Shown here: one piece after another, positions 1 through 9,486 of the stretch | Layout: each line of letters begins with the position of its first letter | How positions within the stretch are numbered: position 1 is the stretch's first letter | Assembly (NCBI RefSeq): GCF_014695575.1 | Contig: NZ_JACJOO010000055.1 | Span: 1 to 64,000, forward strand | From: Leptolyngbya sp. FACHB-8 | GTDB lineage: Bacteria; Cyanobacteriota; Cyanobacteriia; Elainellales; Elainellaceae | Length of the DNA stretch: 64,000 bases | Direction: 5' to 3' | The notes under the pieces: generated by a model | The model's input: the letters and a program-made list of their open reading frames with translations, nothing else | Databases searched by the model: none | Told to the model about the DNA's origin: nothing | Made by a program: the position numbers and the translations under genes

Positions 1-113
1 TTGAAGCCTGAAAATAGCCCGCCGAAGGCGGGCTATTTTCAGGCTTCAAAGCCGAGAGTTCGCGCCCGTCGGGCGCGAACTCTCGGCTTTGAAGCTCATA
101 ATGAGAATTGCTG
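1..113. repeat. Family D palindromic unit, left end cut by window
   Basis: Two adjacent long hairpins (about 1-49, arms of 23 bp with a GAA loop; about 47-92) are followed by the terminal sequence ATAATGAGAATTGCTG. The same layout and end are found in the complete 132-bp copy at 20185-20316, where the arms read differently but still pair. The right end at 113 abuts the middle of a family A hairpin arm (CTCGAAAAAGCCC), so this copy appears to have been inserted into a family A unit whose left half lies outside the window. Confidence 0.8.
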
Positions 114-186
114 CTCGAAAAAGCCCATTATTGCGTGCGCGTCGCGCACGCAATAATGGGCGGTTCGGCTTATCCCGAACTGACGT
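114..186. repeat. Family A palindromic unit, right part only
   Basis: Carries the right arm of hairpin a, all of hairpin b (CCCATTATTGCG... with a 1-nt loop) and the terminal repeat CTTATCCCGAACTGACGT, essentially identical to the right part of the complete copy at 1674-1795. It is interrupted on the left by the family D unit. Confidence 0.8.
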
Positions 187-233
187 TAAGTACGGTGGTA
201 TGGGACACGAAGCGCCCTATACCACCGTACTTA
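187..233. repeat. Family G hairpin
   Basis: Palindrome with arms TAAGTACGGTGGTAT / ATACCACCGTACTTA directly abutting the family A end. A relative with the same GTACGGTGGTAT core lies at 16779-16830. Positions 234-480 hold no gene I can support; they are the upstream region of the glycosyltransferase. Confidence 0.6.
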
Positions 234-480
234 CTCAACGCACTTGAACTATTTCTACAGATGTGTGGATAGGGTGTTGGCAGAGAGGCTCTAAGTGCCC
301 TCTCAGATTTGAAACACGACCGGGTATTCCCACGACCATTTTGGGCATTCTCCTAAAAGATGCCCACAAAATTTTATGGGGCTTCTTCAAAGCTTTACCT
401 GCACCAGGTTAGGTATTTTCTACGCTGTAGATAACCCCTGATCTATTGATGACACTCGTTTACCCCTTGGAGCCTGCCTG

Positions 481-1674
481 ATGATTTCACTGGTCAACGG
501 TTTGCTGATGGCGATCGCCCTCCTGCTGATCATCCCCATTGGCATATTTGTGGTGGAGTGTCTGGCCGCACTGTTACCCAATCCCCGTCGTAATCAGCTC
601 TCTGGAGCGGCTCCCTCCATTGCCGTGTTAATGCCTGCCCACGACGAAGCCGCCGTAATCGACACCACCCTAAAAACCCTGCTGCCCCACCTGAAATCCG
701 AGGATCGGTTGGTGGTGGTGGCGGATAATTGCACTGATAATACAGCCGCGATCGCCCGCCAAGCGGGGGCCACTGTTATCGAGCGCTTCGACGCCCAAAA
801 CCGAGGGAAAGGTTATGCCCTGGATTTTGGAATGCAACACCTGATGCCCCAACCCCCAGACGTCGTCGTTATCGTTGATGCCGACTGTCGGGTTGAGGGT
901 GATGCCATTGAGCAGATTTCTCGGATGGCTCAAAAAACGGGCCGTCCCGTTCAGGCTATTTATTTGATGGAACTTCCACCCGAGTTCAAGCCCAGTAGTG
1001 CCATCTCTGCTCTGGCTTTTACAGTGAAGAATTTGGTACGGCCGCGTGGTATGGATGGGCTGGGGCTCCCCTGTTTGCTGACGGGAACGGGTATGGCTTT
1101 CCCCTGGGAACGCATTGCAAACTCTCCCCTGGCTAGTGGCAACATTGTGGAAGACATGCAATTGGGTCTAGATCTGGCGATCGCTGGGCATGCTCCCCTC
1201 CTCTGCCGCAGTGCCCGCGTAACTGGTATCCTGCCGCAACAGGATACCGCTGCCCGAAGCCAGCGCACTCGCTGGGAACATGGTCATTTGCAAACTCTCC
1301 TCACTCAGGTGCCCCGCCTCACCGCAGAAGGTCTACGCCAGATGCGCTTTGACCTCATCGCTCTGGCATTGGATATGCTAGTGCCCCCCCTCTCGCTGCT
1401 GGTCATGGCATGGATTGGCGCAATGGTGGTGTTGGTTGCGGCTACCCTTTTAGGAGCTTCGGTGGGACCAGCGATCGCCCTCGGCCTCAGCGGTGTCATT
1501 ATGACGGCAACGATTGTTGTGTCCTGGTGGGTATTCGCCCGCAAATCCATTCCCGGTTCCACTCTTCTCAGCATTCCCCTTTATCTGCTGTGGAAAGTGC
1601 CCCTCTACATGGCCTTTCTGCTCAAGCGTCAAACCCGTTGGGTCCGCACTGAACGGGATGCGGTTAGTAAATAA
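481..1674 (+). CDS. Glycosyltransferase family 2, membrane-bound
   Basis: 397-residue GT2 enzyme that would transfer a sugar from a nucleotide-sugar donor at the cytoplasmic face of the membrane. An N-terminal membrane segment (about 5-32) precedes the GT-A domain (about 45-280). Visible motifs are DAD at 133-135 (the metal-binding DxD), ED at 224-225 and QRTRW at 261-265, the Q-x-x-R-W signature of processive or hopanoid/polysaccharide-type GT2 enzymes. Two or more C-terminal membrane segments follow (about 290-335 and 345-388). Acceptor and product cannot be told. The gene stands alone. Its TAA stop shares its last base with the first base of a family A unit. Confidence 0.85.
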   Translation: MISLVNGLLMAIALLLIIPIGIFVVECLAALLPNPRRNQLSGAAPSIAVLMPAHDEAAVIDTTLKTLLPHLKSEDRLVVVADNCTDNTAAIARQAGATVIERFDAQNRGKGYALDFGMQHLMPQPPDVVVIVDADCRVEGDAIEQISRMAQKTGRPVQAIYLMELPPEFKPSSAISALAFTVKNLVRPRGMDGLGLPCLLTGTGMAFPWERIANSPLASGNIVEDMQLGLDLAIAGHAPLLCRSARVTGILPQQDTAARSQRTRWEHGHLQTLLTQVPRLTAEGLRQMRFDLIALALDMLVPPLSLLVMAWIGAMVVLVAATLLGASVGPAIALGLSGVIMTATIVVSWWVFARKSIPGSTLLSIPLYLLWKVPLYMAFLLKRQTRWVRTERDAVSK

Positions 1675-1801
1675 CCTCAGTTCGGGTTAAGGGCTTTTTC
1701 GAGTGCCGCGCTTCGCGCGGCACTCGAAAAAGCCCATTATTGCGTGCGCGTCGCGCACGCAATAATGGGCGGTTCGGCTTATCCCGAACTGACGTTAAAT
1801 A
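1668..1801. mobile_element. Family A unit (122 bp) with TAAATA target duplication
   Basis: The unit proper is 1674-1795, exactly 122 bp, between direct repeats TAAATA (1668-1673 and 1796-1801). Terminal inverted repeats are ACCTCAGTTCGGGTTAAG and CTTATCCCGAACTGACGT. Inside are hairpin a (1691-1735, 21-bp arms, TTC loop) and hairpin b (1733-1769, 18-bp arms, 1-nt loop). Before insertion the preceding gene would have ended AAA TAG; with the element it ends AAA TAA. No coding capacity, so it is non-autonomous. Confidence 0.85.
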
Positions 1802-1867
1802 GCAACGTTATTTCTTTTTGTGTGAGGCTAGATAGCCTCACACAATCTATTAGGACGGGATTTTGAA

Positions 1868-2110
1868 ACCTCAGTTCGGATTAACCTGAGTTCGGGTTAA
1901 GGGCGTTTTCAAGTGCCGCGCAACGCGCGGCACTTGAAAACGCTCATTTTGGCGTGCGCGAAGCATACGCCAAAATGAGCACTTCAGCCTATCCCGAACT
2001 GAGGTGGATTAAGGGTCTTTTCGAGGAGCGCAGTGCGTCCCTCGAAAAGACCCTATTTTGTGTGCGTCGCGCACGCAAAATAAGCGATTCAGTTTATCCC
2101 GAATTGAGGT
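1868..2110. mobile_element. Family A unit interrupted by a second family A unit
   Basis: The outer copy begins at 1868 (ACCTCAGTTC) and resumes at 2012 (AGGGTCTTTTCGAGG..., ending AATTGAGGT at 2110). Inside its left terminal repeat sits a complete 122-bp copy at 1884-2005, flanked by GGATTA at 1878-1883 and again at 2006-2011. Removing the insert and one GGATTA restores a 115-bp family A unit. The outer copy has flanks TTTGAA and GTTGAA, a possible eroded duplication. The two copies differ in stem sequence while keeping pairing. Confidence 0.85.
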
Positions 2111-2131
2111 GTTGAAAAGTCGCGCGGAGCG

Positions 2132-4348
2132 CTAGAGAGATGGCACATCTTGAGTGATAGGAAAAAATGTGTTGCAGCAGGCTGCTGGGTTAAGGGGAAG
2201 ATGGATGGTAAAAATCGTGCGTTCATGAGTTGAGGTAACCTCAATCGCCCCGCCTAAATAAGTGACACGTTTCTTGACTAGAGCTAGCCCCAGGCCTGTT
2301 CCCCCGTGCTTCCAGGGGTCGCCGTTGGGAATGCGGTAAAACTTCTCAAAAACGCGCTCGAACTCGGTTGTCTGAATTTCTACCCCCGCGTTTATTACGC
2401 TGATATGAAGGGTTGAAGTATCGGCGTGAGCTGCGATCGCAATTCCCTCTCCTGGTGGTGTGTACTTGCAGGCATTATTGAATAGTTCCATCAAGATATG
2501 TTCCAGATGGGATAGATCAATGGCCACCGTGCCGACCGAATCGGCCACCTGAATTGTCAGAGTTTGGTTTTGTGCTTGAAGACGGGCTGTAAACGCTTCA
2601 GACAGATGGGAAAGCCAGGTTTTAAGTTCAATGCATGTAGGCAAGATAGGTTCTGTCTTCGCGTCCAGGCACGAAAATTCCAGCAGGTCATTAATCAAGG
2701 CCATCTCGCGATCGCCTTCCATCTCCAGTACTCCCAGATACTGTTGCAGCGCCAGGCTAATATGCTCGGGAAGCTCGGCTTGCTTGAGCAGCAGGTCCAT
2801 CATTTGCATCGCCATACGAATATTCGCCATGGGCGTGCGCAACTCGTGGGATACCGTGCTAAGAAAATCATCCTTCAACTGATTCAGACGTTCCAACTCC
2901 TGCACCTGGCGCTGGGCCGACTGGTAGAGCCGGGCCTGCCGGATGGCGATCGCACACTGGTTGGCAACCTGCTGTGCGACTCGAATCTGCAACTCATCAA
3001 AGGTGCGATTGGCAAACGTAGCCAACCTCAATTCCCCAAGCACCCCCTGGTCGTCCAGGATGGGGCAGACCAGCAGCGAAATGCGCCCCCAGATGGGGTG
3101 GTATTCGCAGTAGTGCAGATACTGCTCGCACAATAATTGCTGATAGGGAGAGCTGCTTTGAGCCAACGGCATGACCCGATGGCTGATAGAAGAAAAGAAA
3201 GTCGTGTACTCGTATTGAGGAATAACTGTATGGGTTGCCAGATCATAGGTAGCGGTCAGGCATGAGCCGACCCCTAGTCCCTGAGCCAGCTCCTGTACTA
3301 CGCTTTGCAAGATCTGGGATTCGTCCAAGCTATCTCGGACTCGATCTGTAATACGCTTCAGTAAAGCTTCAAAGTCTAATGCTTCTTGAAGTTGGGCCGT
3401 GTGGGCTTGTACCTGTTGGGCCAGCTCCGAGTTGAGTTGTTGCACCTGGTCATACAGGTTGGCCTGATGGATGGCGATCGCTACTGACGTAGAAAGCTCT
3501 TGCAAAAATTCAATTTCCCAGGCTTGCCACTGGCGAGCTTGGCGACACTGATGCGCCATCACCAAACCCCAGGGATGATCGCCCAGCCAGATAGGTACGG
3601 TTACATAAGCCTTAATCTCAAATTGCAGTAGTAGCAGCACATGGTTCTCGGGCAAGTCTGCCTGCTCTAGATCGGCGATCGCTTGCACAGCCCCCGAAGA
3701 TGCTGTGCTTAAACTCAACAAGGGGGCATACAGGAGCGTATCACTCAAGCTGGAGTAACCCTCCCGCACCTGTTCCACCAGCACCCGGCTGCGGCACGGA
3801 GACTCATACTGCAAAATCAGCACACGATCTGCATCAAGGAACTGCTGCACTTCCTCAACAGTGGTTTGTAGAATAACGGGTAAGTTAAGACTGCGGCGAA
3901 TTCGTTGGCTTACTTTATGGATCAGCGTTTCCCGTGCAATTTGCTTCTGTAGAGCCATTTCGAAGGCTGCTTGTCGGTGCTGCTGCAAATTCTGGATGTG
4001 TTGTGACTGCTCGGCTGGCAGGATGAAGGCCGGCTGACACGCCTGCTCTTGATGCGCCACAATAGCCGATAGCATCTGGTTGACGGCTTCATTCAGAGAT
4101 TCCAGTTCTTGCAATCCAGAGCATTCTTTTAACCGAATATCGAAATTGCCGTGAGTTACTGCCTCAACCAGTTTCAAGATTTCCTGTATCCAACGTCGAA
4201 CCCATGGCTGAAACCCCAGCTCTAGCAGCAGTATGAGCGCGATCGCCCCTCTCGGAACTAACCCAGATAGCATGGCATTTCCTAAAACCAGGCCATACAG
4301 CACCAGAGCCAACACTCGCAGACGGACTTGAGAGGGTCCTCGCTTCAT
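2132..4348 (-). CDS. Membrane-anchored GAF sensor histidine kinase
   Basis: 738 residues. N-terminal membrane segments (about 8-50) are followed by a HAMP-like stretch (about 52-95), a GAF domain (about 165-300), a second GAF domain (about 345-480), then HisKA with phospho-acceptor His501 in SHELRTP, and HATPase_c with the N box NNACK (about 624-628) and GTGLGL (about 683-688). It should autophosphorylate in response to a ligand or chromophore bound by a GAF domain. I see no clear chromophore Cys-His motif, so a phytochrome function is not claimed. No response regulator is adjacent, so the partner is unknown. Confidence 0.88.
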   Translation of the reverse strand: MKRGPSQVRLRVLALVLYGLVLGNAMLSGLVPRGAIALILLLELGFQPWVRRWIQEILKLVEAVTHGNFDIRLKECSGLQELESLNEAVNQMLSAIVAHQEQACQPAFILPAEQSQHIQNLQQHRQAAFEMALQKQIARETLIHKVSQRIRRSLNLPVILQTTVEEVQQFLDADRVLILQYESPCRSRVLVEQVREGYSSLSDTLLYAPLLSLSTASSGAVQAIADLEQADLPENHVLLLLQFEIKAYVTVPIWLGDHPWGLVMAHQCRQARQWQAWEIEFLQELSTSVAIAIHQANLYDQVQQLNSELAQQVQAHTAQLQEALDFEALLKRITDRVRDSLDESQILQSVVQELAQGLGVGSCLTATYDLATHTVIPQYEYTTFFSSISHRVMPLAQSSSPYQQLLCEQYLHYCEYHPIWGRISLLVCPILDDQGVLGELRLATFANRTFDELQIRVAQQVANQCAIAIRQARLYQSAQRQVQELERLNQLKDDFLSTVSHELRTPMANIRMAMQMMDLLLKQAELPEHISLALQQYLGVLEMEGDREMALINDLLEFSCLDAKTEPILPTCIELKTWLSHLSEAFTARLQAQNQTLTIQVADSVGTVAIDLSHLEHILMELFNNACKYTPPGEGIAIAAHADTSTLHISVINAGVEIQTTEFERVFEKFYRIPNGDPWKHGGTGLGLALVKKRVTYLGGAIEVTSTHERTIFTIHLPLNPAACCNTFFPITQDVPSL

Positions 4349-5002
4349 TGTTTTCTTGTATCCCCAACAATTTCAACGCCAGTACAACAGGGCTTGCACA
4401 CTATTGTTGAGTATGGTGACTGACCCACTCCACAATAATGCTCCGGGTAACAAATAACCTGTACTTGCGTACATATCGCATACGCAAAGGTCGGCGTTTA
4501 GAGGTCAGTCAGACGTGTCGACCTTTAAACGCTTGCATCCAAACAAACTCCAGGACGTGCTCTAAAACTCGCTGAGAGGGTCATTTTTGCGTGCGCAAAG
4601 TGTACGCAAAAATAGCCTCTAAAGCAGATTCGAGTAAATTTGGATGTAACTCAATGAGGTGGACATACATCGAGCCCAATTCCACTTGTGTCTTTAGTAC
4701 GCTTCTCTACGGTTGTATAGAAGGGATCCCAAATGCTGTGACGAACGAGCATGAAGAGGAGATCCGTACGCTCTCTCGCCATTTGCAAAACATGGGTGAG
4801 CGTTCTATTAGATCCTGAGTATTGACAGTATGTGTGGTAAGTCTCTCCCACCATACGTAACATACCACCCTGTCCAGCAGAGATTTATATAGGTTTTGTA
4901 TTAGGAAATGAAGATGTTGTATCTAAATTGGATGGTGCATTGTGTACGCAATACACTGTTCAATCCATATAGGCTCAAATGTAGCCTGATATAAAAACGG
5001 TA
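4349..5002. other. Gene-free region with several hairpins
   Basis: About 650 bp between two kinase genes. It holds hairpins at about 4473-4498 (TTGCGTAC...GCATACGCAA), 4494-4531 and 4576-4619 (TTTTTGCGTGCGC...GTACGCAAAAA), the last resembling hairpin b of family A. Short reading frames here on either strand show no recognisable domain, and I do not annotate them. Confidence 0.5.
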
Positions 5003-8199: not shown

Positions 8200-8306
8200 C
8201 TTAGGAGATTTCTGAGAAACAATATCCCCTTATTTGGAAAAAAGGCGCGGCGAAGCCGCGCCTTTTTTCCAAATAAGGGGGAAGTTCTTATCTGGAAATC
8301 TCCTTA
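8200..8306. repeat. Family F palindromic unit
   Basis: 107 bp with ends CTTAGGAGATTTCTGAG and CTGGAAATCTCCTTA around a long central hairpin (CCCCTTATTTGGAAAAAAGG... pairing perfectly, loop near GAA). The outer ends match those at 45325-45430 and 50991-51099, but the stem sequence is different. It begins 2 nt after the lnt stop codon and could serve as its terminator. Confidence 0.65.
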
Positions 8307-8320
8307 CAGGTAATGTTCTA

Positions 8321-8393
8321 GACGAGTGAATGGGGTGTGATGAAAAGGGCAGGAATGTCCCTTCACCACACCCGATCCACATCACTTGATGAG
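8321..8393. repeat. Family H hairpin with imperfect direct-repeat flanks
   Basis: Core 8327-8387 (61 bp) begins TGAATGGGGTGTG and contains a hairpin closing on CACCACACCC. It is flanked by GACGAG (8321-8326) and GATGAG (8388-8393). The relative at 14319-14384 has exact 7-bp flanks. Confidence 0.5.
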
Positions 8394-8399
8394 TTCTTC

Positions 8400-8488
8400 A
8401 GGACTTACGCGTCTGTGTTGTGGGTGGGGTGCTTTGCACCCCACCCACAACACAGACGCACTGCATATAGCGGGCTTGCATAAGTCCT
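8400..8488. repeat. Family B palindromic unit, 89 bp
   Basis: Outer ends AGGACTTACGC and GCATAAGTCCT enclose a long perfect hairpin (GTGGGTGGGGTGC / GCACCCCACCCAC) plus the conserved ATAGCGGGCTTGC. Copies of exactly the same length lie at 56346-56434 and 58175-58263. No target duplication is visible. It lies just downstream of the minus-strand gene ending at 8515. Confidence 0.75.
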
Positions 8489-9201: not shown

Positions 9202-9228
9202 TGGAAACCAAAAATAAGGCTTGGCTTC

Positions 9229-9486
9229 TAATAAACTTCAATTTGGGATAAACCAAAGTGCCCTTTGTGTGTGCAGGGTGCATGTCAAAAAGGGCGTTTT
9301 CGAAGGGCGCGCAAAGCATGCCCCTCGCAAAGCCGTTAACCCGAACTCAGATTAATAAACCTCAGTTCGGGTTAAGCTGCAGTGCTCATTTTGGCGTGCG
9401 CTTTGCGCACACCAAAATGAGCGTTTTCGAGTGCCGCACAACGCGTGGCACTCGAAAACGCCCTTAACCCGAACTCAGGTTAATAA
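9229..9486. mobile_element. Two family A units in tandem sharing TAATAA repeats
   Basis: An older, diverged copy (9235-9352, 118 bp, ends ACTTCAATTTGGG and CCCGAACTCAGAT) is followed by a well-preserved 122-bp copy (9359-9480). The hexamer TAATAA stands before the first (9229-9234), between them (9353-9358) and after the second (9481-9486). The second copy reads in the opposite orientation to the one at 1674-1795. The simplest reading is two successive insertions at the same hexamer. Confidence 0.8.

Follow-up and report, generated by a model that had tools for sequence, protein, structure and literature searches.

A 122-bp repeat unit nested in an older copy of its own family in Leptolyngbya sp. 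FACHB-8, with terminal repeats of the IS982 type

Within a 64,000-nucleotide stretch of the cyanobacterium Leptolyngbya sp. FACHB-8 (contig NZ_JACJOO010000055.1, positions 1 to 64,000, referred to as a whole as the window), positions 1868–2110 hold two copies of a short repeat, one lying inside the other. This locus raises the question of whether a unit of the family entered a pre-existing copy of its own kind, and what would have moved it there. The account favoured here, to which a probability of about 0.9 is given, is that the repeats are miniature inverted-repeat transposable elements (MITEs) moved by a transposase of the IS982 type, and that a unit of subfamily A entered an older unit at the hexanucleotide GGATTA.

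The nested site and the order of insertion

The compound and its presumed flanking repeats consist of the following parts.

1862–1867, no strand: TTTGAA, taken to be the outer unit's target repeat; its partner GTTGAA at 2111–2116 agrees in 5 of 6 bases (weak)
1868–1883, minus strand: left piece of the outer, older unit, 16 bp, ACCTCAGTTCGGATTA, comprising its right-end terminal repeat as far as GGATTA; read directly and by script
1878–1883, no strand: target duplication GGATTA, first copy; read directly and by script
1884–2005, minus strand: inner, complete 122-bp unit of subfamily A, ACCTGAG...CTGAGGT
1903–1943, no strand: hairpin 2 of the inner unit, GCCGCGC type, with the loop GTT in canonical orientation
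1942–1980, no strand: hairpin 1 of the inner unit, GTGCGC type, with the loop TTC and two uncompensated stem changes
2006–2011, no strand: target duplication GGATTA, second copy; read directly and by script
2012–2110, minus strand: remainder of the degraded outer unit, 99 bp

The minus orientation of the inner unit places its left-end repeat, of the GGGATAAG type, at 2005 and its right-end repeat, GGGTTAAG, at 1884. The outer unit measures 115 bp in total (16 + 99) and is split after base 16. Without the insert it regains a normal right terminal repeat, ACCTCAGTTCGGATTAAG, which agrees with the second commonest right-end type at 17 of 18 bases and with the commonest at 16 of 18. Against the subfamily A consensus, 8 of the 122 positions of the inner unit are changed; the outer unit, counted on alignments with the two subfamily consensus sequences, shows 22–23 mismatches and 7 gap bases. 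The outer unit is thus the farther from consensus, so that age and nesting agree. Since an A stands at both 1884 and 2012, a 7-bp duplication, GGATTAA, around an element one base shorter would look identical; the usual boundaries of the family, and the empty sites found in another repeat and described below, favour an element that begins with ACC and a duplication of 6 bp.

Direct reading and a script both confirm the original prediction, base for base, in its coordinates and lengths: a 122-bp inner unit, a 115-bp outer unit and GGATTA on either side. The order of events that it proposed, a younger unit entering an older one, is likewise upheld by the exact ends, the 6-bp target repeat, the restored terminal repeat and the closer agreement of the inner copy with its consensus. 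Insertion is supported as the simplest reading; the phrase "direct proof" that had been attached to it is slightly too strong. The locus was compared with that of one congener (genome G001), which has no match to the unit. Its neighbouring glycosyltransferase gene is present at 69% identity over 1054 bp, but past it stands a different convergent open reading frame (ORF), by eye unlike the histidine kinase gene of the window, and the congener was consequently rejected as an uninterrupted orthologous site. The compound puts two insertions in relative order and indicates that the family is able to use its own copy as a target. A search of the host genome for split-end junctions, with up to 3 mismatches, returned 8 places, among which the 1868–2110 locus is the sole unit-in-unit recognised; the places inspected as units were L236, L243–L246 and the L239 place (in L010), with L247 left out.

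Another route to such a compound would be recombination or deletion between two tandem units. Units of this family do cluster, and adjacent or abutting pairs are present in L018 (a unit at 8287–8408, with the next end at 8419) and in L046, where a unit at 9221–9342 is followed by TCGAATA and then by another terminal repeat. At the nested site, however, the left piece stops and the right piece restarts at the same GGATTA, and the inner unit is complete at both ends. The G-to-A variant is present on both sides and is rare in the sample: among the 12 commonest right-end types, which cover 66 of 67 units, GGATTA lies within the right terminal repeat of a single unit, a count lowered by the choice of many units by an exact end motif, TTCGGGTTAAG. 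Tandem recombination yields whole or hybrid units rather than a split unit with a 6-bp overlap. Because two exactly complementary deletions with that overlap would be required, a tandem origin is considered very improbable. Even less credit is due to an assembly artefact fusing two different repeat copies: the draft has 95 contigs and many near-identical copies, but the inner copy is 8 positions off consensus and the outer one has decayed, and the locus, flanked by a gene on either side, is set 1.9 kb in from the end of a 90-kb contig.

Further clusters, in which unit abuts unit across a target repeat, were seen at L018 8287–8560 and L046 9160–9540.

The repeat family and its targets

The host genome (G000) is a draft of 6.93 Mb. 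The 11-base end motif TTCGGGTTAAG occurs in it 213 times, compared with 4 occurrences of a reversed-pattern control. Units were gathered from the window, from 60 retrieved stretches and from some of the junction-search loci; the stretches were the best matches to a query and places among the first 100 of the 213 end motifs, so that the sample leans to well-kept copies. A length of 122 bp was found for 65 of 69 units. One unit of 133 bp, with mis-paired ends, was excluded from the counts of target repeats and flanks (n = 68), and the alignment of 67 rows (A1) excludes three units of 120 or 121 bp and includes two additional units from the window.

Exact direct repeats flank 55 of the 68 units (6 bp in 40, 7 bp in 14 and 8 bp in one). 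Repeats of 6 or 7 bp are found at the units' own flanks in 54 of 68 cases, compared with 83 of 4556 (1.8%) when left and right flanks are swapped between units, and all 40 of the 6-bp repeats have the form T....A. In a rough survey of ORFs of at least 200 amino acids, 23 units lie between convergent frames, 17 between co-directional and 8 between divergent ones; 20 are undecided and none lies inside such a frame. The family, being short, multi-copy and without a gene of its own, is a MITE. Palindromes of the REP/RAYT kind are not known to have DDE-type terminal repeats or target duplication. The present units, with 18-bp ends and duplications of 6–7 bp, do not belong among them by these features, no search aimed at RAYT having been made.

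Filled and empty target sites can be compared directly in an unrelated palindrome of about 57 bp. A subfamily A unit (L027, 2354–2475) and a subfamily B unit (L028, 1528–1649) occupy the same TACAAA in two copies of this palindrome, whose arms have 59 genome matches at up to 1 mismatch and none in the control. The uninterrupted palindrome, with a single TACAAA, was found in 8 of 8 loci displayed (L248–L251, L253, L256, L257 and L259), which represent 7 places, as L249 and L250 are one; these were the output of a one-strand script given 12 loci, and the remaining 4 include L258, the filled L028 site. What distinguishes a filled site from an empty one is therefore the 122-bp unit together with a second TACAAA. 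Because two subfamilies used the identical base position, TACAAA in this palindrome appears to be a favoured target.

Ends of the IS982 type and the probable mobilising transposase

A scan of bacterial genomes with the end sequence ACSTSAGTTCGGGWTAAG gave at least 114 stretches from many phyla, and 8 viral contigs also contain it. Some of these stretches are full insertion sequences (IS) with facing ends and exact 6-bp repeats, namely a 965-bp element in Trichocoleus (L151), one of 983 bp in Phormidium (L167) and one of 1020 bp in Aquimarina (L131). The congener carries a 967-bp element (L221) with TAGCTA on both sides, an open IS982 gene of 303 amino acids and ends one base off the motif. Mismatches to ACSTSAGTTCGGGWTAAG number none in L151, L167 and L224, one in all in L131 and one per end in L221. 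The proteins of L167, L131, L221, L222 and L224 all score above the cut-off of the IS982 transposase model NF033520 of NCBIfam (5 of 5); L151 was left out of this test, its frame being split. On a plasmid of Nostoc sp. C052, a match extends over the end of a gene annotated as an IS982 transposase. A pair of ends in L010 (5855–8380) was rejected as a full element; it encloses an ORF of 474 amino acids that is helicase-like by eye.

The two ends of these elements are not alike. In 8 of 8 IS elements the end before the gene is GGGATAAG, and the other end is GGGTTAAG or a variant with one change. The MITE alignment shows the same asymmetry at columns 14 and 109, at which 57 of 59 distinct rows carry a mismatch, with A on the left in the consensus and T on the right (read inward). 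Owing to this matching asymmetry, the MITE resembles a pair of IS982 ends, one left and one right. A transposase family, IS982, can be assigned to these hairpin repeats.

A DDE transposase can act in trans on element ends, insert into a short target and leave a duplication through gap repair. In the proposed mechanism, an IS982-type transposase would act in trans by binding the 18-bp unit ends, and would move the 122-bp unit into an A+T-rich target of 6–7 bp resembling T(A)NNNA, which gap repair would then duplicate. At 1868–2110 the older unit would have served as the target, its right terminal repeat being entered at GGATTA by the younger subfamily A unit. The nested event requires nothing beyond this ordinary mechanism of transposition, and it is a real but ordinary event for such elements.

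Four observations weigh against this account. Neither PF13612 nor the IS982 protein of the congener detected an IS982 gene in the host genome, though a 95-contig draft may have dropped a collapsed repeat of about 1 kb, and a MITE of such descent does not need its partner in the same genome. The congener itself carries an IS982 element but no match to the MITE. GGATTA lacks the initial T seen in all 40 six-bp repeats of the sampled units. Finally, 13 of the 68 units have no exact direct repeat. The PF13612 matches number 0 in the host genome, 0 in G013, 1 in the congener, 2 in G012 and 9 in G016, and the congener's protein found no match in the host genome or in G013. The transposase was probably lost from both of these genomes, where the MITEs would have outlived it.

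The copies could also have been moved by a different DDE transposase, such as one of the DDE_Tnp_1 type, for which the host genome gives seven matches. These genes were rejected as the autonomous partner: at none of the 7 loci do two copies of the 14-base inner end motif face each other, even with up to 3 mismatches allowed, whereas IS982 elements elsewhere bear these ends at 0–1 mismatches. Little chance is therefore left to a mover of another kind, and an IS982-type transposase is retained as the likely one.

Matches to the MITE were found in 4 of 36 genomes of the order (the host, G013, G016 and, weakly, G042), all of them drafts. A separate search of 40 genomes also matched 4, including G012 with only a 35-bp hairpin. 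Of the named records among the matches listed, the closest to carry a 122-bp unit comes from the cyanobacterium Kaiparowitsia (L145), with one such unit. Among displayed units of 105–130 bp, the length is 122 bp in 10 of 10 from G013 and in 10 of 11 from G016, the last being 124 bp, and these units share only about 68–80% identity with those of the host. A constant length in spite of this divergence suggests that the units descend from a single old MITE lineage and did not arise several times by new deletions within an IS. The two-hairpin design of 122 bp thus recurs in other genera, and MITE lineages may persist after the loss of their transposase. Separately, a lone GCCGCGC hairpin was noted in G012 (L079), and the Nostoc/Desmonostoc records L160, L163 and L176 have a common 224-bp spacing of facing IS982-type ends, perhaps representing another MITE family.

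The kind of element is already known, since an IS982 MITE, cyanobacterial MITEs and mutually inserted small repeats are all on record. In the available parts of the literature, IS982 family ends are given as beginning with AC and their direct repeats as variable in length, with ISNsp1 of Nostoc measuring 1028 bp and having a 6-bp repeat (PMC7335449). The present units resemble these insertion sequences in the AC start, the 6-bp repeats of ISNsp1 and the 18-bp ends of the full elements found here; unlike them, with about 1 kb and a transposase gene, the 122-bp unit has no gene. The closest parallel in origin, MITECca01 of Cardinium, is presented in excerpts of its report as an IS982-derived MITE with 169 copies, non-autonomous, with ends common to IS982-family IS, and mostly intergenic or disrupting mobile elements; those excerpts do not describe a two-hairpin 122-bp design (PMC9769881). 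Other MITEs of cyanobacteria are on record, as far as the accessible text goes (PMC3542288, PMC10969869). Nezha of Anabaena/Nostoc, compared by its description only, is likewise a cyanobacterial MITE, but its partner is said to be ISNpu3-like. Small repeats inserted into one another are described, in the portions available, for BOX/RUP/SPRITE of pneumococcus (PMC3049150), and small repeats inside other mobile elements for the MITEs/SMRs of Haloquadratum (PMC3119063). Set beside the present units by description only, these belong to other organisms and other repeat families, and the Haloquadratum table, as far as available, contains no MITE inside a MITE (PMC3119063). Partial listings of the open-access literature yielded neither a cyanobacterial IS982 MITE nor a cyanobacterial MITE nested in its own kind.

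Hairpins, loop orientation and neighbouring features

Both internal hairpins are conserved across the 67 aligned units, with 98.3% of the stem cells paired. Changes on both sides occur in 14 of 35 stem pairs, compared with 5.6 in shuffles, and none of 500 shuffles reached 14. Measured against the subfamily consensus, all 28 two-sided changes are complementary, about 1.2 being expected from independent change. The one-sided stem changes number 49 and include 30 A-C and 13 G-U pairs. Selection at the RNA level as the sole keeper of the stems was rejected, given this lack of wobble preference and the 28 of 28 complementary changes.

At columns 44–46 and 82–84 of the alignment, most loops occur together with their reverse complement at similar frequency: AAA 21 and TTT 19, GAA 6 and TTC 4, and AAC 24 and GTT 27 in subfamily A; GAC 6 and GTC 3, and GAA 9 and TTC 3 in subfamily B. 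Eleven units agree at all 116 remaining positions; 10 of them cover the four combinations of AAA or TTT with AAC or GTT (2–3 each), and one has AAA with GTC. It is tentatively suggested, with the odds somewhat against it, that loops invert much faster than the element mutates and that stems are kept perfect by arm-to-arm copying through template switching, so that an old MITE of 122 bp with two hairpins would keep its shape in several genera despite diverging stems and the loss of its transposase from some of them. Homogenised arms with inverted loops are, in the accessible portions of two reports, a published signature of template switching (PMC8794818, PMC8604942). If loop flipping is true, the many near-identical copies would document how template switching acts on perfect hairpins in nature.

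Several loops speak against such flipping. CGG in subfamily A and GTT and GAT in subfamily B occur without a partner. All 11 units of G016 have GTC as loop 2, and GGT stands in loop 1 of 5 units of that genome without ACC, though GAC (3) and GTC (1) both occur there. The loops of G013 are found in both orientations (GGC 5 and GCC 1, GTC 2 and GAC 1); the units of G013 and G016 used for these counts were chosen by likeness to a query. The inversion of loops is also possible as cruciform inversion or as an assembly artefact, as a hairpin below the assembler's word length would, by our own reasoning, be assembled either way, also about half and half.

The nested site lies between two convergent genes and near a second unit.

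481–1674, plus strand: family 2 glycosyltransferase gene, upstream of the site
1674–1795, minus strand: separate intact 122-bp unit of subfamily B, with the 6-bp repeat TAAATA, at the glycosyltransferase stop codon
2132–4348, minus strand: GAF/HisKA/HATPase sensor histidine kinase gene, the convergent neighbour

A plasmid search with 651 bp around the nested site gave no match. Rfam, applied to positions 1–5000 with E up to 1, gave 5 matches, all below the gathering score and none over the nested site. At window positions 1668–1680, the separate subfamily B unit falls in the glycosyltransferase stop codon, which would read TAG in its absence and is TAA in its presence, leaving the protein unchanged. 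GCGATCGC words, typical of cyanobacteria, were seen by eye in the window. The contig start (1–186) holds a unit like those of subfamily B, interrupted within one hairpin and fused to two other long hairpins (1–49 and about 50–88). Free-standing hairpins with a similar GTGCGC/GTACGC core and without terminal repeats were noted by eye at about 4440–4640 of the window.
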